Source of the DNA: Rubellimicrobium rubrum
Lineage (GTDB): Bacteria; Pseudomonadota; Alphaproteobacteria; Rhodobacterales; Rhodobacteraceae
Direction: 5' to 3'
NCBI RefSeq assembly: GCF_006152115.1
Contig: NZ_VDFU01000031.1
Coordinates: forward strand, 1-41,393
DNA length: 41,393 nucleotides
Part shown: positions 5,644-18,773 of the stretch, piece after piece
Numbering within the stretch: position 1 is the first letter of the stretch
How the letters are laid out: each line of letters begins with the position of its first letter
Made by a program: the position numbers and the translations under genes
Notes under the pieces: generated by a model
What the model was told of the DNA's origin: nothing
The model's input: the letters and a program-made list of their open reading frames with translations, nothing else
Database searches by the model: none

Positions 5644-6603
5644 TCACTGCCGGATATCTCCCGCTCCTTGCTTGAACCATTCGTAAGTCTCGGCGAGGCC
5701 GTCGCGCAATGGGGTCCTTGCCCGCCAGCCCATGGAGGCAAGACGGCCCACATCCATCAGCTTGCGCGGGGTGCCGTCGGGCTTGGCCGTGTCAAAGCCG
5801 ATGCGGCCCCCGAACCCCGTCACCTCGGCCACCATCCGCGCGAGATCGGCGATGGAGATGTCCTCGCCCGTCCCGACGTTGATGTGCGACAGCATCGCCC
5901 GGGTGTTCGCCTCGTAGGTGGCCCGGTCCAGCCCCATCACGAAAAGCGAGGCCTCGGCCATGTCATCCACATGGAGGAACTCGCGACGGGGGGTGCCCGT
6001 GCCCCAGATGGTGACCTCATCGCGCCCGTCCCGCGCCGCCTCGTGGAAGCGGCGGATCAGGGCGGGGAGGACATGAGAGTTCTCGGGATGGAAGTTGTCG
6101 CCCGGCCCGTAAAGGTTCGTGGGCATGACCGAGCGGTAGTCGCGCCCGTGCTGCCGCGCGAAGCTTTCGCACAGCTTGATCCCGGCGATCTTGGCGATCG
6201 CGTAGGGCTCGTTGGTGGGCTCAAGCGTTCCGGTCAGAAGCGCGTCCTCGGCCATCGGCTGGGGCGCCTCGCGCGGGTAGATGCAGGACGAGCCCAGGAA
6301 CAGGAGTTGCTGGACCCCCGCCGCATGGGCCTGCCCGATCACGTTCGCCTCGATCAGCAGGTTGTCGTAGATGAAGTCGGCCGGGTAGGTGTTGTTGGCA
6401 TGGATGCCGCCGACCTTGGCCGCAGCCAGGATCACTGCGTCGGGCCGCTCGGCCCGCATGAAGTCACGGACGGCCGCCTGATCCGTCAGGTCCAGTTCCG
6501 CATGGGTGCGGGTGATGGGCTCGTCGCGCCCTTCGGCCTGGATGCGCCGCAGGATCGCGCCGCCCACCATGCCGCGGTGCCCTGCCACGAAGATTCGCGC
6601 CAT
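5644..6603 (-). CDS. fcl: GDP-L-fucose synthase
   Basis: NADPH-dependent epimerase/reductase that converts GDP-4-keto-6-deoxymannose to GDP-L-fucose in the cytosol. It is a short-chain dehydrogenase of 319 residues with the cofactor motif GHRGMVG at 8-14, the SSC triplet at 105-107 and the catalytic YxxxK at Y134/K138 (NEPYAIAK). [25 protein letters not shown] is the family's substrate-binding block. The ATG at 6603 is preceded by GAGGAGC, and the sequence before it has no family match. It follows gmd by 22 bases, so the two consecutive pathway steps are co-transcribed. Confidence 0.94.
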
Positions 6604-6625
6604 TCTGGTCTGCTCCTCGGGGCCG

Positions 6626-7744
6626 TCAGTTCTCGACGCTGATAGGCAGGTCGAGCCCATGCGTCTTGAGCAGCGCCTGCCGCCGGGCGGAGAGGTGGTC
6701 CGCCGCGACCATCTCGCGGCACATCTCGCGCGCGGTGATCTCGGGCACCCAGCCCAGCTTCTGCTTGGCCTTGGCGGGGTTGCCCAGCAGCGTTTCGACC
6801 TCGGCGGGGCGGAAGTAGCGCGGGTCGATCCGCATCACGACCTGACCTTCCTTGACCATCGGCGCGTGTTTGCCCTCGACCCGGTCCACGACCGCGACCT
6901 CCTCCACGCCGCTGCCCATGAACTTGAGGGTCATGCCTAGGTCATGCGCGGCCCAGGTGATGAACTCGCGGACCGAGTATTGGACACCGGTGGCGATCAC
7001 GTAATCCTCGGGCTCGTCCTGCTGGAGCATCATCCACTGCATCCGGACATAGTCCTTGGCGTGGCCCCAGTCGCGGAGGGAGTCGATGTTGCCCATGTAA
7101 AGGCACTTCTCGAGGCCCATCGCGATGTTGGACAACCCGCGCGTGATCTTGCGGGTCACGAACGTCTCGCCGCGGCGGGGGCTCTCGTGGTTGAAGAGGA
7201 TGCCGTTGCAGGCGTACATCCCATAAGCCTCGCGGTAGTTCACCGTGATCCAATAGGCGTACATCTTGGCGACGGCATAGGGACTGCGCGGGTGGAACGG
7301 CGTCCGCTCGGTCTGCGGCGTTTCCTGCACGAGGCCGTAAAGCTCGGAGGTCGAGGCCTGGTAGAACCGGGTGGTCTTCTCCATGCCCAGGAAGCGGATC
7401 GCTTCCAGAAGGCGCAGCGTGCCCACGGCATCGACGTCGGCGGTGTACTCGGGGGCCTCGAAGCTGACCGCCACATGCGACTGCGCGCCCAGATTATAGA
7501 CCTCGTCCGGTCGGATCTCGGACAGGATGCGCGTCAGGTTCGAGGTATCGGTGAGGTCGCCGTAATGCAGGCGAAAGCGCCCGTTCTCGTGGGGATCCTC
7601 ATAGATGTGGTCCACGCGCTGCGTGTTGAACAGGGAGGCCCGGCGCTTGAGGCCGTGGACCTCGTAGCCTTTCTCGAGCAGGAACTCGGCAAGGTAGGAG
7701 CCGTCTTGGCCGGTGACACCTGTGATCAGGGCTCGCTTGGTCAC
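6626..7744 (-). CDS. gmd: GDP-mannose 4,6-dehydratase
   Basis: First committed enzyme of GDP-fucose synthesis, dehydrating GDP-mannose to the 4-keto-6-deoxy sugar. The 372-residue protein starts [17 protein letters not shown], with the NADP motif GVTGQDG at 9-15. It contains the near-invariant blocks [43 protein letters not shown] and [16 protein letters not shown]. No ATG lies near the family start. I choose GTG at 7744, which has AAGGAG nine bases before it. It is the first gene of the gmd-fcl-manC-flippase-GT-GT run. The 211 bases upstream, as far as the sugar-transferase remnant, should hold a promoter, but I see no convincing one. Confidence 0.94.
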
Positions 7745-7955
7745 TTCGTAGGGCTCCTTGTCCGTGTCGTGGCCGCGCCCGGGCGGCTGGCGGTGCGAGA
7801 CCGGTCGCGATATGTGACGTCGGTCTAATCGATATGGCCGGCGACAGGGAAACAACCGTACGGTCCAGCGTGTCGTCGTAGGGGCGCGCATGACACGGAG
7901 CGCCTCGACTGTCCACCGCAGGGGAACAATGGATCGGCAATCACTCGCCTATAAC

Positions 7956-8178
7956 GTGCATAGATCAAGCGCCTTTGGCGCCTAGGACGACGCGGAGGGT
8001 TCGGCAGGCGATCCACAGGTCGAGGCGGAGGGAGGCGTGGCGCTCGCGGTAGCCCGGCACCTGTTCGGCGTACACGCGGGCGTGGTCGAAGAAGTCGGGC
8101 CGGGGCCCGATCAGGCTCATCTCGCCCTGGAGCACATTGAGCACCTGCGGCAACTCGTCCAACCGCGTGCGACGCAAA
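7956..8178. repeat. direct repeat, copy A, of sugar transferase 3' region
   Basis: This 223-base stretch matches 15394-15724 in the same orientation, with only two substitutions that I can find. The first begins the block CCTAGGACG versus CCCAGGACG, and the second is AGCCCGG versus AACCCGG. It lacks 108 bases that are present in the other copy. Similarity stops sharply on both sides: just before GTGCATAGATC, and just after GCGACGCAAA. Together the two copies bracket the lasso peptide genes. Confidence 0.92.
7965..8177 (-). pseudogene. truncated, internally deleted sugar transferase remnant
   Basis: A 70-residue open frame that is a fragment of the intact initiating sugar transferase at 15403-16098. 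It keeps [13 protein letters not shown]...[28 protein letters not shown] and then jumps to [24 protein letters not shown] 36-residue block is missing in frame, including the conserved RPGISGLAQV element of bacterial sugar transferases (PF02397). The membrane anchor and the KFRSM region are also absent. The missing DNA lies between two GTGGCG hexamers in the intact copy, which suggests slippage or short-repeat deletion. It starts 12 bases beyond the leader peptidase stop. I regard it as non-functional. Confidence 0.85.
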
Positions 8179-8189
8179 GCCCCTTGGGA

Positions 8190-8639
8190 TCAAAGGTCGC
8201 GGTCGGGCGTGACGAGTGGGACGAAGCCGCTGACATCGCCGCCGGTGACGATCCTGTCCCCATGCCGCAACCACGCATGGGCCTCGAAGCCGGGGGCCCG
8301 GTCCTGTCGGACGCCGATAAGGATGTCGCTCGGGACCCCGGTGCGGGCGAGCCAGGATTGTGCCGCAAGGGCTTGGACGAAGCAGTCGGCGCGCCAGGGA
8401 ACATGGCCGGCCACGCGCGGCACGGCAAAGGCCACGCGATCCACCATAGTGCTGTCCGTCAGCCCTGCCTTGGGGTTCGTAGGGTTGCCCTGGCGCGCCA
8501 TCCGCATCAGGGCCCGCCCCGAGTGGCGGCCCAGGCGCCAGCGCGCGCGGCCGAGCTCAAGGGCCGCGCGACCGAGGTCGAACCAAGTCCGTGGCCCGAG
8601 GTACAGCAGGTGAACCGCGACGAGCTTCCGCCTAGCCAT
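8190..8639 (-). CDS. lasso peptide leader peptidase B2 (transglutaminase-like)
   Basis: Predicted cysteine protease that removes the leader from the lasso precursor so that the cyclase can close the ring. The 149-residue length is typical for free-standing B2 proteins. The family's Cys-His arrangement is visible as RADCFVQALAAQSWLARTGV (C86) and FEAHAWLRHGD (H121), with D135 or D128 as the likely third residue. The leading part contains LGPRTWFDLGRAALELGRARWRLGR, a basic amphipathic segment common in these proteins. Its ATG overlaps the end of the B1 gene by eight bases, as expected for partners that act as one complex. Immediately beyond its stop is the sugar-transferase remnant, so the lasso operon ends here. 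Confidence 0.9.
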   Translation of the reverse strand: MARRKLVAVHLLYLGPRTWFDLGRAALELGRARWRLGRHSGRALMRMARQGNPTNPKAGLTDSTMVDRVAFAVPRVAGHVPWRADCFVQALAAQSWLARTGVPSDILIGVRQDRAPGFEAHAWLRHGDRIVTGGDVSGFVPLVTPDRDL

Positions 8640-8910
8640 GCACCAGGAGGCCGTTTCGCATGAGATCGTCGAGGAAGCGCACCATGTCGGCTTCGATGGT
8701 CGCCGCGCTCACGCCGTAGTCGGCGGCCAGACGGTCGCGGATCTCGGTCAGCGGAACCCGTTCCTTGAGAAGGCCCCAGATCTCAGTGCCCAGCGTATCG
8801 AGCCCGTAATAGGTGTCGTTGCCGAGATGGAGGATCACCGTCTCATCTCCGACGCGGCTCTCGAGGGCCTCGGGGGAGGGGGACAGGTCCAAAGGGTAGG
8901 CGTCGATCAT
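8632..8910 (-). CDS. lasso peptide B1 / PqqD-like leader-recognition protein
   Basis: Small (92-residue) RiPP recognition element that binds the precursor leader and delivers it to the B2 peptidase. The sequence has the PqqD fold pattern: a beta stretch ETVILHLGNDTYYGLDTLGTEIWGLL (near residues 23-48), then helices with LTEIRDRLAADYGVSAATIEADMVRFLDDLMRNGLL. The phrase YYGLDTLGTEIW is characteristic of lasso B1 proteins. ATG 8910 is preceded by GAGGAG; an in-frame TTG at 8958 is less likely. It overlaps B2 by eight bases and lies 171 bases after the kinase gene. Its expected ligand is the YxxPxLxxxG motif in the precursor encoded at 10354-10500. Confidence 0.88.
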   Translation of the reverse strand: MIDAYPLDLSPSPEALESRVGDETVILHLGNDTYYGLDTLGTEIWGLLKERVPLTEIRDRLAADYGVSAATIEADMVRFLDDLMRNGLLVHG

Positions 8911-9081
8911 CAGCTCCTCACGAATCCACCCAAAACCGTGCGCGGCGACAGGATGCAAATGACCCGCATTGCTCTACCGCTGTCCGGTTCAAGTAGGGCG
9001 ATATTGGCGAGATCACCGTCCGACCTCGTGGCGATTCCATAGCAACCTGGGTGCGGGCCACCGATTTCGGCCAAGCATGGC

Positions 9082-9987
9082 TTATCGGGGGCCCTCCAAG
9101 CCGATCGTCTCGGCGATCATGGCGCGCACCAGGGGCAGTTCGTCGAAGGTTCGGGGATAGGTCAAGGCATAGCCCGGCACCGCATTGGCCACCAGACTCG
9201 CGAGGCGCATCCGCTGTCCGGCCTTCATCCGATCAGCGGGATCGAGGGCAAAGCTGCTGCGGAGGAGTTCGATGCACACCTCGGACGGAGGAAGCCGGGC
9301 GATCCGACGCTTCCCGGCTTGGCAAGGGTCGGACAGGAAGAAGAGCCCCTGCAGCCTGAGGTCCGCCGGAGTGGAGGCCGCGTTGCCGACTGCCACGCTG
9401 ATCTTGCGCCCTGTGGGCCGCGAGTCCGCCCCGGCCTGCGAATAAAGCTGAGCCCAAGCGTCGGGCAGCAGCTTGAGCCGGGTATAAAGCGCTCGTGCCA
9501 GGACGGTCTCGTCCTCGTGGCGCAGGTCGACCGCGTCGTCCCCGAGCAGCGGCCATCCGGTCTGGTGCAGGTATCCGGTCAGCGTCGACTTGCCGTGGCC
9601 AGATGGCGCGACGAACAGCACGGCCGAGTTGGGTGCCGGAGCGACCGCGCCGGCATGGATCACCAGATGCCCCAGATGGGACAGGATCCGTGGCGCGACA
9701 TGATCGCCGACCCACTGCGCCACCAGTTCGTCCTCGGCCTCTGGGTCCACGTCATGAACCAGCACGGAGCGGGTTTCAAAGGACACGCGGGCGGAGGCAA
9801 TGCCTTCGGTGCGGACGAGCCTGTCGGGGCCGTCCTCGGCCTTGCCTGTTTCGGTGCCGCACCCGTCATTCCAGGTCCAGGACGAAGCCCGGGCTGGCGC
9901 TGCCTCGCCACGGCGGAAGCTCCAGCCCGGCAAGCCGAACGGGTCGAGGTCACGAGACGCGGAGGGATGATCAAAGGCTTGAACCAT
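9082..9987 (-). CDS. HPr-kinase-like lasso peptide kinase
   Basis: A 301-residue protein related to the C-terminal domain of HPr Ser kinase/phosphorylase. The P-loop APSGHGKST (P128-T135) is preceded by HLVIHAGAVAP and followed by WPLLGDDAVDL (D150/D151), the usual order in this family. Such kinases in lasso clusters, for example paeninodin, phosphorylate a Ser on the precursor's C-terminus, so I infer a tailoring kinase here. The predicted core encoded upstream has no C-terminal Ser, so the acceptor is unclear. The first 50 residues match nothing I recognise, and its ribosome site is weak. ATG 9987 overlaps the stop of a possible 56-residue frame as TGATG. Confidence 0.82.
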   Translation of the reverse strand: MVQAFDHPSASRDLDPFGLPGWSFRRGEAAPARASSWTWNDGCGTETGKAEDGPDRLVRTEGIASARVSFETRSVLVHDVDPEAEDELVAQWVGDHVAPRILSHLGHLVIHAGAVAPAPNSAVLFVAPSGHGKSTLTGYLHQTGWPLLGDDAVDLRHEDETVLARALYTRLKLLPDAWAQLYSQAGADSRPTGRKISVAVGNAASTPADLRLQGLFFLSDPCQAGKRRIARLPPSEVCIELLRSSFALDPADRMKAGQRMRLASLVANAVPGYALTYPRTFDELPLVRAMIAETIGLEGPR

Positions 9988-10157
9988 CAGCGATGCCTAA
10001 TCCGGCCATCCCGATCAGGGCTGCTGGACCCCCTCGGAACGATAGACCCTGTTCTCCGATGCTCCGAGATCGGTGCAGGAGACCTGGTTCCGGCCGCCTG
10101 GGCCATGTCGGCCAGAAGGCTGGCGCCCGACGGACGTTCCACAAGGACATCCGCCAT
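9987..10157 (-). CDS. possible 56-residue protein, unrecognised
   Basis: An open frame starting MADVLVERPSGASLLADMAQ with AAGGTGGG just before its ATG. Its stop overlaps the kinase start as TGATG, which would allow translational coupling. The C-terminal half is rich in Ser, Arg and Pro and resembles no family I know. It lacks the YxxPxLxxxG leader motif, so I do not consider it a second lasso precursor. It lies within the roughly 365-base stretch between precursor and kinase, which otherwise would be untranslated. It may be a chance frame or the decayed end of another gene. Confidence 0.25.
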   Translation of the reverse strand: MADVLVERPSGASLLADMAQAAGTRSPAPISEHRRTGSIVPRGSSSPDRDGRIRHR

Positions 10158-10353
10158 GCCCACCTTGGCACGATCGCGACAGCCCGTGCGCTTGGGACGT
10201 GACGCTTTGGTCATCACATCCAAGGGTCACTGGCTTTCAGGTGACTTGGGCCAGATGCGAATCGCAGGGCTGGTTCTCAACCCCGATCCTCGGACGAGCA
10301 CAGGGCGAAATACGCCAGTTGAACCTAGGCCGGCGTCCCAGGCCTGGGCGGCT
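10158..10353. other. spacer between lasso precursor and kinase
   Basis: Together with the doubtful frame at 9987-10157, this forms an unusually long gap in an otherwise tightly packed operon. Apart from the stem-loop right behind the precursor stop, I see no convincing gene, promoter or terminator in it. Confidence 0.5.
10324..10348 (-). promoter_or_regulatory. stem-loop just downstream of the lasso precursor
   Basis: The arms CCTAGGCC (10324-10331) and GGCCTGGG (10341-10348) pair over eight positions, with one G-T wobble or C-A mismatch depending on strand, around a nine-base loop. The 12-base perfect palindrome CCCAGGCCTGGG lies within it at 10337-10348. It begins five bases after the precursor stop codon. 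Placement suggests an mRNA-stabilising or partly terminating hairpin that keeps precursor transcript above enzyme transcript, as is common in RiPP operons. There is no T-run, so it is not a classical terminator. Confidence 0.35.
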
Positions 10354-10500
10354 TCAGGGCCGGATGCGGCCCCGTTCCTGGCCTTTGTTGCTTTCCTTGG
10401 TGCCCTTGGTGCCGGAAGCCGTCAGGGCCGTGACCGTACCATGCACCGTCAGCGTGGGAGCGGCGTACTTCTTGGCGGCACTCTGCTCTTGATTGTTCAT
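10354..10500 (-). CDS. lasso peptide precursor (A)
   Basis: A 48-residue peptide that I read as the precursor of this lasso cluster. The leader contains YAAPTLTVHGTVTALTA (residues 12-28), which fits the B1-recognition pattern YxxPxLxxxG followed by the LTx that precedes the cleavage site. Thr at the penultimate leader position is the hallmark of lasso precursors. Cleavage after residue 28 gives a 20-residue core beginning SGTKGTKE. Its first residue is Ser and Glu is at position 8, so an eight-membered macrolactam ring Ser1-Glu8 is predicted, with the tail SNKGQERGRIRP. The core is strongly basic (three Lys, three Arg). AAGGAC precedes ATG 10500, 37 bases after the cyclase stop. Ring register and maturation are inference. 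Confidence 0.85.
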   Translation of the reverse strand: MNNQEQSAAKKYAAPTLTVHGTVTALTASGTKGTKESNKGQERGRIRP

Positions 10501-10537
10501 CGCTTCGTCCTTGTTGCTTCCTAGGAGTGTCTGGTGG

Positions 10538-12421
10538 TCATGGCTTCGGTCCGTATGCCGAATTCGACCAAAGCGCCAAGACCGTCCTGTCCCAGCGTAG
10601 GTCGTCTACTAATGGTCTGCTCAGTGGCTGTCCATAGGGCAGGTTCAATGCCTGGTTGAGCAGGGTTGCAGTTGTGTCGCTGGGGCCCGGCATTGCGCCA
10701 TGCTTGTCGGCGGACCGGATCAGCAATTGGGTCAGTGTCCACCCGAGATGGGTTCGCCCCGCACGCCAAAGCACCTCCTCGGGTAGCAGGCCCCGAAGCG
10801 CGCGTCGCAGCAGCACCTTGGGCCAGCCGTCCGTCTTCATCTGCGAGGACGGGCAGCGAAGGCAGAACTCGATGACGCGGAGGTCCATGAAGGGGTCGCG
10901 CGGCTCGATCCCGTGCCCCGCCGCGACGCGGTCATAGCGCTCCCGCCCCACCAGCAGGACCGGACCGCTGATGCTGGCCGCGCGCCACGCGGCCTGGGAT
11001 GGCGCCGGGGCGAAACTGTTCCGCCGCCACCGCGCAACGCGCGACCGAAGATCAACCTGCCGGGCGAAGTCGGGATGGAGGAGGGCGCCCTTCGGACGGG
11101 CATCGTCCAGGCCGCTCCAGCGACGCCGAGCGCGGCGAAGCCAGTCCGGAACCGCCGCTTGCCGGAGAGCCTCTCCCATGAACCGCCAGCGCGTGTGCTC
11201 CCCGCTCCAGTACCGTTCCTCGGCCACCGCCTCGTTCCAGGCCGTCGTCCATCGGCCCGCGCGGATCAACTGCCCCATCCGGTTCCCGTCGGTCAGAACG
11301 ATGTCCCCGGCCACGCCATCCAGCACGACCCGCACGCCTGCGCGCTCTGCGGCGATATAGGCGCTGCGCACGAGGTTCATCTGACCGTCGAATGGCTCCT
11401 TCAGGGACCGGAGAGCCTCGTGCAGGTCGTCCATGTAGGGGGACAGGTCCGCCACATCCACCAGATGCGGGTCCAGGCCCGGAATGGTAAGGCTGGCCCG
11501 GATGGCCCGTGTCTCGGCGCAATCGGGGTCCGCCGAATGGATCACGGAAAACGTGGGGAGAGGCCCGCGGCCCTCGGCCGCGAGGAGGCGCGTCGCGACG
11601 GCGACCGCCGAGCCCGAGTCGAGCCCTCCGGACAGCATCGAGCCGACCGGGCCGTCGCTTCGCAGGCGGCATCGCACCGCTTCGGTGAACACGTCGAGGA
11701 AGGCGTCCGCATAGGCTTGGTCGCTTCCAAGGCGCATCTCGGGGCCCGGGACCAGGGACCAGTAGCGCCGGACGGTCAGGCCCCTGGCATCCGCCACGAG
11801 CCAATGGGCCGGCGGCAGACGGCGGACATGCTGGAAGAAGGTCGACTCGACGTCGATGGCCTCGAGGTAATCCTCAAGATAGTCTGCGATCCGACCCGTA
11901 TCCAGGTCGGGCGGAACCCCCTGAGCCTCGAGCACGGCCCGAGGCTCGGTCGCAAAGGCCAGCAGGCGGTTCTCGCGGTGCGCATAAGCGAGCTGCCGCA
12001 TCCCCATAGGGTCGCGCGCCGCAATGATCTGCTCAGCGCGCGGATCCCATATGGCAAAGGCGAAGTCGCCCAGCAGGCGGGTGAGGCAACCCTCGCCCCA
12101 GGCCAGCCAGGCCCGGAGGATGATCTCCCCGTCGCCGATCACGCGGCCGGTCCCGAGGAGGTCCAGTGCAGCCAGCAGCTCTGCCCGGTTGTCGAGCCGG
12201 ACATCCGCAGTGATCGTGCAGCCCGTCGCGGGATCGGTCAGCGGCATGACCTCGTGCCGTGCTTCCGGCGTGGTGGCGAGCAGCGTGTGGCCCAAGGCGA
12301 CCTGGCCTTCCCGATGGATCCGGGTCGCGTTGGGGCCGCGCCGTTCCAGAAGGGCGGCCATGGCCTCGATGCCGTCAGGCGGCCCACCATCGAGCCTAAG
12401 GATGCCACAAATGCCGCTCAT
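10538..12421 (-). CDS. lasso peptide cyclase C (asparagine synthetase-like)
   Basis: A 627-residue AsnB homologue predicted to adenylate the Glu8 side chain of the core and close the isopeptide ring onto the N-terminal amine. The N-terminal glutaminase-like domain starts MSGICGILRLDGG. The nucleophilic Cys2 of true asparagine synthetases is Ser here, which agrees with an enzyme that needs no ammonia. The ATP pyrophosphatase motif SGGLDS is at 264-269, and the C-terminal block (YDRVAAGHGIEPRDPFMDLRVIEFCL) is typical of the synthetase domain. ATG overlaps the exporter stop as ATGA. The precursor follows 37 bases after its stop. An ordinary asparagine synthetase is unlikely given Ser2 and the neighbours. 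Confidence 0.93.
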   Translation of the reverse strand: MSGICGILRLDGGPPDGIEAMAALLERRGPNATRIHREGQVALGHTLLATTPEARHEVMPLTDPATGCTITADVRLDNRAELLAALDLLGTGRVIGDGEIILRAWLAWGEGCLTRLLGDFAFAIWDPRAEQIIAARDPMGMRQLAYAHRENRLLAFATEPRAVLEAQGVPPDLDTGRIADYLEDYLEAIDVESTFFQHVRRLPPAHWLVADARGLTVRRYWSLVPGPEMRLGSDQAYADAFLDVFTEAVRCRLRSDGPVGSMLSGGLDSGSAVAVATRLLAAEGRGPLPTFSVIHSADPDCAETRAIRASLTIPGLDPHLVDVADLSPYMDDLHEALRSLKEPFDGQMNLVRSAYIAAERAGVRVVLDGVAGDIVLTDGNRMGQLIRAGRWTTAWNEAVAEERYWSGEHTRWRFMGEALRQAAVPDWLRRARRRWSGLDDARPKGALLHPDFARQVDLRSRVARWRRNSFAPAPSQAAWRAASISGPVLLVGRERYDRVAAGHGIEPRDPFMDLRVIEFCLRCPSSQMKTDGWPKVLLRRALRGLLPEEVLWRAGRTHLGWTLTQLLIRSADKHGAMPGPSDTTATLLNQALNLPYGQPLSRPLVDDLRWDRTVLALWSNSAYGPKP

Positions 12422-14073
12422 GCCGCGCTCCGGTCGGCGACGATCCGGCCCGCATCCAGCCGGACCACACGGTCCGCGAGGGCTAGCGTCGCGGGCCGGT
12501 GGGTGATAACGACAACGGTTCGATTCTTGAGGGCCGAGGCCGCGGCGGCCACAAAGGCGCTTTCTCCGTCGAGATCGTACATCGACGTCGCCTCGTCCAA
12601 GATGAGGATGGGTGGATCCTTCAGGATCGCCCGCGCGAGCGCGATCCGCTGCCCCTGACCGCCCGACAGCCGGACACCATTCTCTCCGATGCGCGTGTCG
12701 TAGCCTTCGGGCAGGTCGAGGATGAAGTCATGCGCTTGGGCGAGGCGTGCGGCGGCCTCGATCTCGGCCACGGTCGCGCCGTCCCGGCCGAAGCCGATGT
12801 TGTCGCGCACCGTGCCGTGAAACAGGAGCGGCCGCTGGGGCACGAGGCCGATCTGTCGGCGCAGGTCGCGCAGCGCGATGGCGCGAAGGTCCATGCCATC
12901 GAGCCGGACCGTGCCCTGTTGCGGATCCTCGAACCGCAGGAGGAGTGAGGTCATCGTCGTTTTGCCCGCGCCATTCGCGCCGGTCAGGGCCAGTGTCTCG
13001 CCGGGGCGGATGGACAGGGTCACTCCTCGGAGAGCCGATTCGCGCCCCGGATAAGCAAAGTAGACGTCTTCGAAGGCGATCGCACCCTTGGCCCGGTGCA
13101 GTCGCGGCGCATGGACAGGCTGCGGCTCGGGCGGCGTGTCGAGGATCTCGGACAGGCGGGCGAGGGTGCCGCGCGCCGACTGGACGCGTCCATAGACATG
13201 GGCCAGTTCCGCCACGGGGCGGGTCAGGAGGGCCGCATAAAGGAGAAGGCTGACCATCTCGGACGGCGACATCGCCCCTGCTTGCAGGCGCTGACCGGCC
13301 AGAGCCAGAAGAAGGACCGCGCCGATCCCGGCCACGAGGCTCGTGGCTGGGCCGAAGACCGCATAGATCTCGGCTTCGCGGATCGCGAGGTCGCGCGCGG
13401 TCCCGGCCTGTTGGCCAAAGCGCCGGGTTGCCTGATCCTCTCGGGTGAAGGCCTTGATGGCGGGCAGCATCGCCAGATCTTCCGAGGCAGTGGCCACCAC
13501 CTGCGCCTCGGCTTCCTGTATGGACTGGGCGAGGCCCCGCAGGCGGCGACCCACGACCTTGAGGGCCAGGTAGAACACGGGCACGATTAGCGGCACCGCC
13601 AGGGCCAAGGCCATGTCGATCCGCGCCATGAGGATCACCGCGCCCAAGGCCGTCACCGCCTGCGCCGGCAGGCCTGCCAGCGTTTCGGTCATGAGACGTC
13701 CCAGACGCTCGATCTCGTAGGTCGAAAGCGCCAGCAGGTCCCCCTGGGTGTGCCGCTGGTGAAAGGACAGTGGCAGCGCCTGGAGGTGATCGTGGACTTG
13801 GGTTCGCATCTCGGCCAGCAGCCGGGCCGTCGCACGACCCGACACTATCCCCAAGGCGGCGCGCAGAACTGCCGCGAGGGTTAGGACCAGAACGAGCAAC
13901 GCCGCCACTGGCGCAAGCGCAACACCCGCCGTTTCCAGGATCGCACCGGCCATTCGTCCAGCCAACGCGGGCAGCAGCAGCATGGCGCCGGACTCGGCCA
14001 GCATCAAGACCGCCAGGAGCGCAAGGGCCCCGGTATGAGGTCGGGCCAGGTGACGGAGCCGGGTGAGGGTCAG
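12418..14073 (-). CDS. lasso peptide ABC exporter (D)
   Basis: A type I ABC exporter half-transporter, predicted to secrete the mature lasso peptide and confer self-immunity. The transmembrane domain fills roughly residues 12-300 (GALALLAVLMLAESGAMLLLP, then VALAPVAALLVLVLTLAAVL). The ATPase domain has Walker A GANGAGKTT (about 360), signature LSGGQGQRIALARA (about 465) and Walker B ILILDEAT. No N-terminal C39 peptidase is present, as expected where B2 does the cleavage. There is no in-frame ATG, GTG or TTG near the expected start. The first is inside helix 1 (ATG 14004). A CTG at 14073 overlaps the nucleotidyltransferase stop as CTGA and follows GAGGGAGGGG, so I start it there tentatively (551 residues). 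Confidence 0.88.
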   Translation of the reverse strand: MTLTRLRHLARPHTGALALLAVLMLAESGAMLLLPALAGRMAGAILETAGVALAPVAALLVLVLTLAAVLRAALGIVSGRATARLLAEMRTQVHDHLQALPLSFHQRHTQGDLLALSTYEIERLGRLMTETLAGLPAQAVTALGAVILMARIDMALALAVPLIVPVFYLALKVVGRRLRGLAQSIQEAEAQVVATASEDLAMLPAIKAFTREDQATRRFGQQAGTARDLAIREAEIYAVFGPATSLVAGIGAVLLLALAGQRLQAGAMSPSEMVSLLLYAALLTRPVAELAHVYGRVQSARGTLARLSEILDTPPEPQPVHAPRLHRAKGAIAFEDVYFAYPGRESALRGVTLSIRPGETLALTGANGAGKTTMTSLLLRFEDPQQGTVRLDGMDLRAIALRDLRRQIGLVPQRPLLFHGTVRDNIGFGRDGATVAEIEAAARLAQAHDFILDLPEGYDTRIGENGVRLSGGQGQRIALARAILKDPPILILDEATSMYDLDGESAFVAAAASALKNRTVVVITHRPATLALADRVVRLDAGRIVADRSAA

Positions 14074-15393: not shown

Positions 15394-15724
15394 GTGCATA
15401 GATCAAGCGCCTTTGGCGCCCAGGACGACGCGGAGGGTTCGGCAGGCGATCCACAGGTCGAGGCGGAGGGAGGCGTGGCGGACGTAGTGGAGGTCGGCGG
15501 CCACCTTGGCGTGCAGGCCGTCGAGGCCGTCCACGTAGCCCACCTCGACCTGCGCGAGGCCCGAGATGCCGGGGCGCACGGTGTGGCGCTCGCGGTAACC
15601 CGGCACCTGTTCGGCGTACACGCGGGCGTGGTCGAAGAAGTCGGGCCGGGGCCCGATCAGGCTCATCTCGCCCTGGAGCACATTGAGCACCTGCGGCAAC
15701 TCGTCCAACCGCGTGCGACGCAAA
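15394..15724. repeat. direct repeat, copy B, in the intact sugar transferase gene
   Basis: Counterpart of 7956-8178, in the same orientation about 7.4 kb away. It includes the 108 bases missing from copy A: GTGGCG occurs at 15475-15480 and again at 15583-15588, and the deletion spans one hexamer to the other. It extends from just outside the stop codon of the sugar transferase to the codons for RRTRLDELP. Confidence 0.92.
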
Positions 15725-16098
15725 AGGCCGCCCAGGGGAGTGATGCGGTGACGGTCGAGAGCATCGAACGCGCCACGTGCCACCTGGGTGGCGTCCGTCA
15801 TCGAGCGGAACTTCCAGGCCTGGAACGGCTGTCCTCCCTGGCCCATGCGAGTTTGCACGAAGAAAAGCCCGCCGCGGTTGAACCACGGGTTCAGCACGAC
15901 CAGCAGCAGCGCCACCAGCCCCAGGGGCGCCAGCAGCACCAAAGCGCCCAGCACGTCCCCGGCACGCTTGACCCATAGATAACCGGCACGCGAGCGGCCC
16001 GACCCGATCTGGCCCGACCCGACCTGGCCCGACCCGACCTGGCCCGACGCAATCTGGCCCGTTTCGCCCCAGCCGCCCTCGGCCAGAATGTTCGCCAT
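15403..16098 (-). CDS. initiating sugar phosphotransferase (bacterial sugar transferase family)
   Basis: Predicted polyisoprenyl-phosphate sugar-1-phosphate transferase (PF02397, ExoY/WcaJ-like), the first step of repeat-unit assembly on undecaprenyl phosphate. The 231-residue protein has one N-terminal membrane segment (AGDVLGALVLLAPLGLVALL). It then shows the family blocks [32 protein letters not shown] and RPGISGLAQVEVGY. Before the helix lies a Gly/Ser/Gln repeat linker encoded by a 15-base tandem repeat. ATG 16098 is preceded by GGAGCGG; longer starts at ATG 16143 or TTG 16170 remain possible. The nucleotidyltransferase of the lasso set follows 178 bases downstream on the same strand. 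It is divergent from the Wzc-like gene, and its 3' part is duplicated at 7956-8178. Confidence 0.9.
   Translation of the reverse strand: MANILAEGGWGETGQIASGQVGSGQVGSGQIGSGRSRAGYLWVKRAGDVLGALVLLAPLGLVALLLVVLNPWFNRGGLFFVQTRMGQGGQPFQAWKFRSMTDATQVARGAFDALDRHRITPLGGLLRRTRLDELPQVLNVLQGEMSLIGPRPDFFDHARVYAEQVPGYRERHTVRPGISGLAQVEVGYVDGLDGLHAKVAADLHYVRHASLRLDLWIACRTLRVVLGAKGA
15996..16055 (-). repeat. 15-base tandem repeat, four units
   Basis: Four consecutive 15-mers of the form GGCCCGACCCGAYCT start at 15996, 16011, 16026 and 16041. The last is degenerate (GGCCCGACGCAATCT), and a partial fifth copy follows. The unit is a multiple of three, so length changes would alter the GSGQV/GSGQI linker of the sugar transferase without frameshift. 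Confidence 0.9.
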
Positions 16099-16613
16099 CG
16101 CCGCTCCGCCTCCGCGCGGCGCGTCTCCAGTCCTGCCCAGCATCCGTGTCCCTCGTCGTCCCTGCTTCAAGACAGGTTAAACAGGCCATTAAGGTGACAG
16201 GCGTGCGATGGAAAGCCAAAAGAGGCGAAGTCGACAAATTCCTGCAACCTTGAGGTGTAGATGCCGCGCGACCCGGGGGTGTGGTGACCTCTCGGCGAGC
16301 AATCGTACCCGAAGTCGATCTGGACCCGGCAGGTTGGCTGTGGATACGCTGCGCTGGCCGCAACATCCGGTCAGTCAGCCGTCAGGTCTACACGTCCAAG
16401 TGTAGCCACGTAAGCATCAAACCGCTCAATGGCGAGTCAGCCACCGAGCCCGTCGATCCAGGGTGGGGCAACTTTATGTATGTAAGGCAGTAGTTTACTG
16501 GAGAGATGAAACCTCGTGGGATCGTGAGTCTCAGGGTTAAGTTTAATACTTATCCAATCGGCGAACCTGGTCTAATAGAGCCCGGATGCTCCGAGGCGAG
16601 AGACAAGGCCGTG
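16099..16613. other. intergenic region between divergent sugar transferase and Wzc-like genes
   Basis: About 515 bases of somewhat lower GC, especially 16470-16560. It must hold the promoters for the minus-strand sugar transferase/lasso genes and the plus-strand Wzc-like gene. Apart from the inverted repeat at 16388-16405 I can pick out no confident promoter or operator. An in-frame extension of the Wzc-like gene back to ATG 16506 exists, but its GGAG is only two bases from that ATG, too close for good initiation. Confidence 0.5.
16388..16405. promoter_or_regulatory. inverted repeat, possible operator
   Basis: CTACAC and GTGTAG form a perfect 6-base inverted repeat around the 6-base centre GTCCAA. 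It sits roughly midway in the divergent promoter region of the export genes, where a regulator could act on both sides. No regulator gene lies next to it, and the arms are short, so it could be chance. Confidence 0.3.
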
Positions 16614-18773
16614 ATGCAAAAACCCGTGCCAGCTTATGAGCTGCAGCCCGCCGTCCGTCACGCCGAGGCCGGGGACGAAGTCGATCTTCTGGAGGTGATG
16701 CGCACGCTCTGGCGCGGTAAGCACTCCATCGCGCTCTGCGCCGCGCTAACCCTGTCCTATGGGGGGTACAAGGCCTTCGTCACGGCCCAGCCACTTTACA
16801 CGGCGACGGCGCAGATGGCTTTGGAGGTCAGCACCCCGTCAGTGATGAACGTCGAGGCGGTTGTCTTGGGCTTTGCGGGCGACGAAGCCAGCATCAACAC
16901 GGAAATGGCTGTCATCACCTCCGGTGATCTCATCGGCCGCCTGGTGGACGAGCTGCAACTGACCCAGGACCCCGAGTTCAACGGCGCCATCGAGACATCC
17001 GATGACCAGCCTGGCCTGATCGCGCGGGCCAAGGACGTCGTCCGGGGTTGGCTTAATCGCGAAACCGCCACTGTGGAGGACCCCGTTCTGCCCGAGGAGG
17101 AGCGGCGCGACGTCATTGACGCTGTGCGCGGTGCCATCGAGACGGGCAGCAGCTGGGATACCTATGTCTTCACGATCTCGGCCACGACCGAGGATCCTGA
17201 CAAGTCGGCCCTGCTGGCCAACACGCTTGCTCGGGTTTATCGCGATGATCAGGCCCGCATGAAGATCGAGGCCACGGAGCAGGCTGCGGAATGGTTGTCT
17301 GGTCGTGTCAGCGAGCTTCGGTCCGAACTCGACACCCATGAACGGCGGATCTCTGACCTGCGCGCAAGCAGTTCTCTGGTCAGTGCGGAAGGCCTTGATG
17401 CTCTCAACGGGCAGGCCATCGAGTTGCGGAGCCAGCTTCAGCAAGTCCGAGGCCAACTCGAGCGGATCAACGAACGCCTGCAGGCCCTGCGGGCGGCCGA
17501 ATTCTCGGACGACATCCAGATCAAGCTGGACGCGGCGCAAGACGGACAGCTCGAATCCGCTGCAGGTGCCGTCGCGTCCTCCGAGCCGGGCGCACAGGCT
17601 CGGTTCGACCGTCGCTTCGTACAGGTCATCCTGCAGACCGAAGCCGAACAGCAGCGGGCCGAGGCCCTCATCACCGAGCTTCAGCGCCGGGTGGACGAGT
17701 TGTCTACCCAGTTCGAGGGGCAGTCGGTCGATTTCCAGGAACTCCAGCAGTTGGAGCAGGAAGCCGAGGCCACGCGCGTGCTTTACGAGAGCTTCCTGAC
17801 CCGTCTCAAGGAAACGACCGTCCAGGAGAGCGTCCACCAGTCCGACAGCCGCATCCTGACCGAAGCCCGCCCGGGCGAGCAGGTAGCGCCGCGGCGTTCG
17901 CTCATGCTGGTCATGGCGCTGATGGCCGGCCTTCTGCTGGGTTCGGCGCTCGTTCTGCTGCGAGAGTTCCTGCAGAACACCTTCCGCAGCGCGGAAGAAT
18001 TGGAGCAGTACACCGGTCGGACCGTGCTGGGGCAGATCCCCCGGATTCCCACCCGTGCCCGCGTCGACACCATCAAGTATCTCCTGTCGAAGCCGACCTC
18101 GGCTGCGGCCGAAGCGATCAGGAACCTTCGGACCTCGCTCCTCCTGTCGAACGTGGACCGGCCGCCCCAGGTCATCATGGCAACCTCCTCGGTTCCGAAC
18201 GAGGGCAAGACGACTCTGACCATCGCGCTGGCCCAGAACCTGGCCGGCCTGGACAAGCGGGTCCTGCTGATCGAGGGCGACATCCGCCGTCGCACCTTTG
18301 CGGCGTACTTCCGGCAGGCTCCGGGCAAGGGCGGCATCCTGTCGGTGATCGCCGGACGGGACAGCCTGGAGGGCGCGGTGTTCCGGCCTGAAGGTTTGGA
18401 CATCGACGTCTTGGCTGGCGAGCAGCGGTCCAACGTCAATGCCGCCGACCTGTTCTCGTCCGACAGCTTCCAGCGCCTGATCGAGCAGGCGCGAGGGGCC
18501 TACGATTACATCGTCATCGACACGCCGCCGGTGCTGGTCGTGCCGGATGCTCGGGTGATCGGCCAACTGGCCGACGCCGTCGTTTATGTGGTGCATTGGG
18601 ACCATACGCCCAAGGGCCAGGTCGAAGACGGGCTCCGGCAGTTCCGGTCGGTCAATGTGCCCGTCACCGGGCTGGTGCTGTCCCGCGTCGATCCCAAGGG
18701 GATGAAGCGCTATGGCTACGGCGGCCGCTATGGGGCCTATGCCCGCTATGGCCGCAGCTATTACGAGGCCTGA
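16614..18773 (+). CDS. Wzc-like polysaccharide co-polymerase with BY-kinase domain
   Basis: Inner-membrane chain-length/export protein of 719 residues with a fused cytoplasmic bacterial tyrosine kinase. Order: a Wzz-type domain starting DLLEVMRTLWRGKHSIALCAALTLSYGGYKAF (TM1 near 38), a periplasmic coiled-coil region (roughly 220-410), TM2 (SLMLVMALMAGLLLGSALVLL, near 430), then the kinase. Walker A is SSVPNEGKTT (about 526), Walker A' is VLLIEGDIRRR with Glu where Asp is usual, and Walker B is YIVIDTPPVLV. The tail KRYGYGGRYGAYARYGRSYY holds seven tyrosines, the expected autophosphorylation cluster. I start at ATG 16614 (AAGG upstream). A strong terminator follows the stop. Its partner is the Wza-like gene, which is convergent. 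Confidence 0.9.
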   Translation: MQKPVPAYELQPAVRHAEAGDEVDLLEVMRTLWRGKHSIALCAALTLSYGGYKAFVTAQPLYTATAQMALEVSTPSVMNVEAVVLGFAGDEASINTEMAVITSGDLIGRLVDELQLTQDPEFNGAIETSDDQPGLIARAKDVVRGWLNRETATVEDPVLPEEERRDVIDAVRGAIETGSSWDTYVFTISATTEDPDKSALLANTLARVYRDDQARMKIEATEQAAEWLSGRVSELRSELDTHERRISDLRASSSLVSAEGLDALNGQAIELRSQLQQVRGQLERINERLQALRAAEFSDDIQIKLDAAQDGQLESAAGAVASSEPGAQARFDRRFVQVILQTEAEQQRAEALITELQRRVDELSTQFEGQSVDFQELQQLEQEAEATRVLYESFLTRLKETTVQESVHQSDSRILTEARPGEQVAPRRSLMLVMALMAGLLLGSALVLLREFLQNTFRSAEELEQYTGRTVLGQIPRIPTRARVDTIKYLLSKPTSAAAEAIRNLRTSLLLSNVDRPPQVIMATSSVPNEGKTTLTIALAQNLAGLDKRVLLIEGDIRRRTFAAYFRQAPGKGGILSVIAGRDSLEGAVFRPEGLDIDVLAGEQRSNVNAADLFSSDSFQRLIEQARGAYDYIVIDTPPVLVVPDARVIGQLADAVVYVVHWDHTPKGQVEDGLRQFRSVNVPVTGLVLSRVDPKGMKRYGYGGRYGAYARYGRSYYEA

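Follow-up and report, generated by a model that had tools for sequence, protein, structure and literature searches.

The window, meaning the whole stretch of 41,393 nucleotides of Rubellimicrobium rubrum DNA analysed here, encodes a lasso peptide that, judged from its sequence, is a new addition to a recognisable branch of these peptides. As read from its genes, the cluster around the precursor is complete and intact, and it is class II-like, since the window core contains no Cys. The reading that best explains the locus as a whole, to which we assign a probability of roughly 70%, is a modified lasso peptide with a Ser1-Glu8 ring, a phosphate on Thr3 and perhaps a sugar, in an envelope or matrix setting. 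This reading joins three loose ends: kinase-bearing clusters without a C-terminal Ser in the precursor, a near-invariant Ser/Thr in the ring, and a recurrent placement in polysaccharide loci. The peptide is of interest chiefly for the probable phosphorylation of residue 3 and for its polysaccharide setting, and not for its charge.

The lasso cluster and its precursor gene

The cluster is transcribed from the minus strand in the order N, D, C, A, K, B1, B2 (Table 1). Genes for B1, B2 and C, the combination by which a lasso cluster is recognised, stand beside the precursor. Two of the proteins also match further models at scores below the cut-offs: the cyclase reaches 474.6 bits against NF033535 (cut-off 525), and the kinase matches both TIGR04352 and Pfam Hpr_kinase_C below their cut-offs. 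The start of D was set from the length of its R. aerolatum relative, and the open frame continues to 14646. One B2 locus is present in the window's own genome of 4.6 Mb.

Table 1 Features of the lasso cluster and the adjoining polysaccharide locus in the window.
Feature	Coordinates	Strand	Evidence or remarks
Lasso precursor gene A	10354..10500	(-)	48 codons; ATG at 10500, stop at 10356-10354
Leader, 28 residues, MNNQEQSAAKKYAAPTLTVHGTVTALTA	10417..10500	(-)	Tyr(-17), Pro(-14), Leu(-12), Thr(-2)
Core, 20 residues, SGTKGTKESNKGQERGRIRP	10357..10416	(-)	predicted Ser1-Glu8 ring; Thr3 predicted phosphorylation site
Likely ribosome binding site AAGGA	10508..10512	(-)	7 nt before precursor ATG; read from sequence
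C, asparagine-synthase-like lasso cyclase, 627 aa	10538..12421	(-)	Pfam Asn_synthase 138.6 bits, cut-off 21
D, MsbA-like ABC exporter	12418..14073	(-)	matched in NCBIfam/Pfam-type domain scans
N, NTP_transf_5 nucleotidyltransferase, 414 aa	14070..15314	(-)	Pfam 103.6 bits, cut-off 31.2
K, HprK-like kinase, 301 aa	9082..9987	(-)	H111, K133, D150, D151 present
B1, PqqD-like leader-binding protein, 108 aa	8632..8958	(-)	Pfam PqqD 60.4 bits, cut-off 23.4
B2, transglutaminase-like leader peptidase, 149 aa	8190..8639	(-)	NF033537 71.4 bits, cut-off 33
Initiating sugar transferase, polysaccharide locus	15403..16170	(-)	Pfam Bac_transf
Wzc-like chain-length/tyrosine kinase protein, polysaccharide locus	16506..18773	(+)	Pfam Wzz, GNVR, AAA_31
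GDP-mannose 4,6-dehydratase, polysaccharide locus	6626..7891	(-)	Pfam GDP_Man_Dehyd

The precursor is a real gene and not a chance open reading frame (ORF), as judged from its leader domain match, the TbiA matches of its profile, its position in the cluster and the related precursors in the genus. The lasso leader domain NF033521 of NCBIfam passes its cut-off (20.3 bits, cut-off 19), and the longer NCBIfam model NF033528 stays below its own (24.5 bits, cut-off 33). When a profile of 27 related precursors was compared with the PDB, the top two matches were TbiA leader peptide chains (E 0.0021 and 0.0026), followed by antibody chains at E 0.026. The gene is placed between the cyclase gene and the genes for the kinase, B1 and B2, and related precursors occur in the corresponding clusters of three other Rubellimicrobium genomes. 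No ORF with a YxxPxL leader is among those listed for the gap between the precursor and the kinase.

The translation, read on the minus strand from 10500 to 10354, divides into leader and core at the Ser that we take as the core start, which places Tyr12, Pro15, Leu17 and Thr27 of the precursor at leader positions -17, -14, -12 and -2. This is the register given for B1 recognition and leader cleavage in the relevant passages of PMC10368454. The preliminary description of this DNA had named a YxxPxL leader as the B1 ligand together with a penultimate Thr, and this register bears it out. Its coordinates, 10354-10500, and its length of 48 residues are exact; it gave no strand, and the gene lies on the minus strand. 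It had also counted homologous clusters with a different precursor gene as evidence against its reading. No such cluster was seen in the genus, where the precursor lies between the cyclase and the kinase or between the kinase and B1.

Distribution of related clusters

B2 was found in 21 of the 195 genomes searched as relatives and in four of eight Rubellimicrobium genomes, the window's own included. The clusters of the four lasso-bearing genomes of the genus all begin with N-D-C and end with B1-B2, with A and K between them in either order; the genus genome G006 has two precursors. Searches with a precursor profile gave matches at E 0.01 or better in 15 of 390 genomes of the order and 7 of 385 genomes of the class. 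An E of 1.5e-9 or better was reached by only four genomes in the search of the order, one of them the window's own, and the occurrence of the branch is therefore patchy.

A contig scan with four cyclases gave at least 78 loci, counted within the best 80 of 539 matches. In a tree of these 80 cyclases, made like the kinase tree with FastTree only, the window's cyclase belongs to a branch of 20 rows with support 98, 19 of which group at 99. Among these best 80 of 539 matches, the branch consists mostly of Alphaproteobacteria, with four Gammaproteobacteria and one Acidobacteria MAG, and the other 60 rows are mostly cyanobacterial. Cyclases of relatives are 55-62% identical to that of the window, and the core motif is kept there. 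Our literature searches, which covered a minor part of the subscription papers, returned no lasso peptide paper for Rubellimicrobium, no title about a lasso peptide with Rhodobacter or Paracoccus, and no sign of the window's lasso branch.

Lasso-type cyclases related to that of the window (34-36% identity) were also seen in three archaeal records. Two of these, L118 and L120, are Euryarchaeota MAGs. The third, L133, is a plasmid of Halopiger xanaduensis with genes for B1, B2 and a nucleotidyltransferase nearby (6200-11305), on which the pattern used identified no precursor.

Predicted ring and related cores

We compared 31 related cores, hand-picked from loci of the cyclase branch (among the best 80 of 539 cyclase matches) and from L047, L134, L135, L136 and L148. 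The cyclase-branch loci and L047 together account for 27 cores; the last four loci were added through a precursor profile that includes the core, which makes their agreement slightly circular. The piece fetched for L047 carries no cyclase, and L047 and the four added loci are placed by the kinase tree only. L065 belongs to the cyclase branch, and it stands outside the 31 cores because its short contig gave no precursor.

These cores agree with the lasso precursor and Ser1-Glu8 ring that had been predicted at the outset, together with the suggestion that precursors of related genomes be compared. Position 8 is Glu in 27 of the 31 cores, and in the four exceptions (the first precursor of L066, L132, L134 and L057) a Glu stands at position 7 or 9, so that all 31 have Glu at 7-9. 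Gly occupies position 2 throughout (31/31) and Ser or Thr position 3 in 30 (Ser 22, Thr 8). Positions 4-7 are variable, with Gly frequent at 4 (13/31) and 5 (9/31). The leader/core register and the conservation of positions 2, 3 and 8 are evident in the aligned precursors, and closure of the Ser1-Glu8 ring in the window core is highly probable by this comparison. Ser1 had been considered less common than Gly; in the branch the reverse holds, Ser being the commonest first residue (15 of 31), ahead of Ala (9), Gly (6) and Asn (1). Lasso peptides beginning with Ser or Ala are reportedly known from a 2014 study of the caulonodins.

For the outgroup, 61 cores of kinase-bearing loci were prefiltered for a YxxPxL-type motif, Thr(-2) and an acid at 7-9, which leaves the kind of acid, residues 2 and 3 and the C-terminus as the fair points of comparison; at least one of the 61 (L114, IQLP) resembles a chance ORF. 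At 7-9 one of these cores has Glu and the rest have Asp, and Gly2 and Ser/Thr3 occur in 7 and 4 of them, respectively.

The preliminary description had called the product a cationic lasso with a basic tail. This holds for the window core, whose net charge is predicted to be +4 once the ring has closed, and for the five Rubellimicrobium cores (+2 to +4), and fails as a description of the branch, whose 31 cores range from -3 to +5. From these values strong basicity is a trait of the lineage and not of the branch, and the basic tail is ruled out as a family trait.

Two gammaproteobacterial MAGs of the branch carry precursors in tandem, three in L068 (4810-5472) and two in L080 (9009-9372), with methionine-rich tails very unlike the basic tails of Rubellimicrobium. 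Furthermore, 8 of the 31 cores have a C-terminal Cys and at least one further Cys (L056, L047, L132, L134, the second precursor of L058, and L068), and the branch may therefore include disulfide-bearing lasso peptides.

Kinase and candidate phosphorylation site

The H-K-D-D motif of K is invariant in all 21 aligned kinases (those of L059 and L062 were omitted, since one runs into a contig end and the reading of the other began at a late start), and it is described as needed in lasso kinases (PMC9266682; PMC10368454). An AlphaFold model of K has a pLDDT of 89.6. Sequence searches for solved relatives of K gave weak matches only, and it was the fold comparison that placed the superfamily, with PEP carboxykinases as the best matches and HPr kinases lower in the ranking. 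These two kinds of enzyme share an ATP-dependent fold.

Three published systems bear on the residue that K may modify. The kinases of paeninodin and pseudomycoidin (PMC8498205; PMC9266682) are HprK-like with the H-K-D-D motif, and pseudomycoidin also has a nucleotidyltransferase, but these kinases target a C-terminal Ser, whereas the window core ends in Pro and a C-terminal Ser occurs in 3 of the 31 branch cores. Closer in gene content is the BsfA/BsfK cluster of Bradymonas sediminis, which, according to the passages that describe it (PMC10368454), shares A, B1, B2, C, D, the kinase and the nucleotidyltransferase with the window, as well as an 8-residue ring and a precursor without a C-terminal Ser. 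BsfK phosphorylates Ser3 of the core of this precursor and accepts Thr there. BsfA differs in having a Gly1-Asp8 ring and Ile(-2) where the window has Ser1-Glu8 and Thr(-2), and BsfK, although homologous to the window kinase (profile E 9.8e-26), belongs to a different branch; in the kinase tree its long, unsure branch falls among the outgroup kinases and away from the kinase of the window. LppK likewise phosphorylates core Ser3, and the linear polyphosphorylated peptides to which it belongs (PMC13381572) resemble the window system in having an RRE, an HprK-like kinase, an NTP transferase, an MsbA-like exporter and glycosyltransferase-rich loci; they differ in being linear, without a cyclase, with a signal-peptidase-like leader peptidase, in Bacillota, and in that Thr3 is not accepted.

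The combination of Ser/Thr3 with a kinase in the cluster is present in the window (Thr3) and in 30 of the 31 branch cores, compared with 4 of the 61 kinase-bearing outgroup cores. Thr3 is the best candidate because Ser/Thr3 is near-invariant in the branch and both BsfK and LppK act on residue 3. By comparison and analogy, Thr3 appears a likelier target than the C-terminus, and we consider its phosphorylation rather probable; the peptides of the branch are probably phosphorylated on ring residue 3.

The kinase might instead act on another core hydroxyl (Thr6 or Ser9) or on something other than the precursor, with Ser/Thr3 being kept for the structure of the ring. In keeping with this, 57 of the 61 outgroup cores from kinase clusters lack Ser/Thr3, and three outgroup cores combine a C-terminal Ser with Ser/Thr3. 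Both features are absent from 44 of the 61, so such kinases must also act elsewhere. Within the branch, however, position 3 is conserved and Thr6 and Ser9 are not, and two published kinases, BsfK and LppK, act on residue 3 in the accounts available (PMC10368454; PMC13381572). We regard a target elsewhere as a possibility of some weight, and phosphorylation of Thr3 as the reading to prefer. Among the cyanobacterial outgroup, loci such as L104, L112 and L077 have an HprK-like kinase though their precursors lack both a C-terminal Ser and Ser/Thr3.

Polysaccharide neighbourhood

The window cluster is surrounded by genes for glycosyltransferases, a Polysacc_synt flippase-like protein, GDP-mannose dehydratase, an initiating sugar transferase, and Wzc-like and Wza-like proteins (Pfam). 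Polysaccharide genes were also found by phmmer around the clusters of the three other lasso-bearing genomes of the genus, in which the lasso cluster directly adjoins Wzc, whereas the window has a sugar transferase gene between the two. Wzc is present in five of the eight genus genomes, and the fifth, G002, has it beside a sugar transferase and without lasso genes. G001, G003 and G005 have neither Wzc nor B2, and two of them are only 85-88% complete.

Outside the genus, polysaccharide-type genes were found at 11 of 15 loci scanned (some flanking ORFs, Pfam; among the matches listed), a count that rests partly on phmmer and on record annotation and leaves out L047, L059, L064, L065, L134 and L148 (short or unscanned contigs). 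The 11 loci are L056, L057, L061, L062, L063, L066, L067, L068, L069, L080 and L132, the evidence being one dehydratase-family gene at L063 and one WecA-type gene at L069. At L058, L060, L160 and L161 no polysaccharide genes were found among the flanking ORFs scanned. With one phmmer query set, polysaccharide neighbours were seen at 7 of 17 branch loci outside the genus, compared with 15 of 61 outgroup loci for Wzc alone and at most 18 for any query (both among the matches listed), and the link is thus not peculiar to the branch. For Wzx and GMD this set used trimmed pieces as queries; the Wza query was out of frame, with 5 stops, and its counts were disregarded.

Lasso clusters inside capsule loci have already been published for Bacilli by Popov et al. 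(PMC13381572), who called a biofilm role "tempting" and left it untested; the setting is seen here in Proteobacteria. It occurs in the named strains R. aerolatum DSM 19297 and R. roseum YIM 48858, where it can be tested by gene deletion.

Proposed product and its role

In the route that we propose, K would phosphorylate the precursor, most likely at core Thr3 and not at the C-terminus, and B2 would cleave after Ala(-1) with Thr(-2) as a guide. C would activate the side chain of Glu8 and link it to the amine of Ser1, leaving a basic tail of 12 residues behind an 8-residue ring, and export of the lasso product would fall to the ABC protein D. N may attach a sugar to the phosphate, by analogy with pseudomycoidin, in which a nucleotidyltransferase adds a hexose to the phosphate (PMC8498205); we put this step forward tentatively. 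A search for the mass of the core minus one water, as first proposed for detecting the product, is incomplete, since genes for a kinase and a nucleotidyltransferase are part of the cluster, and a mass-based hunt should include phosphate and sugar adducts. The calculated mass is 2167.157 Da for the lasso without modification ([M+2H]2+ 1084.586, [M+3H]3+ 723.393), about 2247.12 Da for the form carrying one phosphate and about 2409.18 Da if a hexose is added to that.

The product may have its role in the envelope or the matrix. We propose this from the placement of the cluster within a locus for polysaccharide assembly and hold it as one possibility among others, more likely than ribosome inhibition of the lariocidin kind. 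A wider reading would have the whole branch ([S/A/G]-Gly-[Ser/Thr]-x4-Glu, mostly Proteobacteria) work in surface polysaccharide and not in killing, with a residue-3 phosphate, a sugar added by the nucleotidyltransferase, and the peptide decorated with or tied into polysaccharide; we consider this unlikely as a general rule.

A narrow-spectrum bacteriocin against relatives would have the same chemistry, and its polysaccharide neighbourhood would be incidental. Many lasso peptides of Proteobacteria are antibacterial. In favour of this reading, cores vary among close relatives (the precursor is 45-48% identical to those of two genus members), the occurrence is patchy, and at 4 of the 15 scanned loci no polysaccharide genes were found nearby. 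On the other hand, apart from the exporter no gene was recognised as serving dedicated immunity, and the polysaccharide setting is kept in all four genus genomes that have the cluster. A bacteriocin is thus plausible without being the reading we favour.

That the cluster is silent or decaying and makes no product seems improbable. The adjoining partial copy of a sugar transferase is broken, the related bsf cluster yielded no product in several hosts according to the passages concerned (PMC10368454), and a scan for promoters and terminators near the precursor gave nothing above chance, with no sigma-70-like match. However, that scan covered one promoter type and expected just 0.1 chance matches, all seven genes are open with the kinase motif and leader residues intact, and the relatives with 55-62% identical cyclases keep the core motif.

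A cationic antibiotic like lariocidin or triculamin, which enters cells by its charge and binds the 30S ribosome, is the least probable reading: the window core has Ser1, an 8-residue ring and many Lys/Arg (net +4), and lrc-like clusters are reported in Alphaproteobacteria (PMC11451635), but of the eight residues named there (Ser1, Lys2, Pro6, Gly7, Asp8, Phe11, Arg17, Gly18) it shares only Ser1 and Arg17, the lrc cluster passages name no kinase or nucleotidyltransferase, both of which the window has, and charge is not conserved across the branch. Membership of the lariocidin/triculamin family is ruled out by Glu8 in place of Asp8, the 2 of 8 shared residues and the lack of an acetyltransferase among the 27 window ORFs scanned with Pfam.

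Minor features of the locus

The RNA just 3' of the precursor (window 10180-10356, minus strand) is predicted to fold more stably than shuffled sequences (z -2.36), 3 of 200 shuffles being equally good; it is perhaps a processing or attenuation element between the precursor and the kinase.

The partial sugar transferase copy lies just downstream of B2 (window 7956-8178), and the full gene flanks the cluster at its other end (compared region 15394-15724). Two segments, of 87 and 145 nt, make up the partial copy; both match the full gene at about 99% identity, and in the full gene a further 108 nt separate them. At the site of the partial copy, downstream of B2, R. aerolatum and R. roseum both carry a sugar transferase gene, and the lasso-free G002 has one beside Wzc, which weakens the idea that these repeats are the footprint of an insertion. 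Both of these places are filled in the window, one of them by the partial copy, so copying followed by decay fits the two copies better than an insertion footprint.
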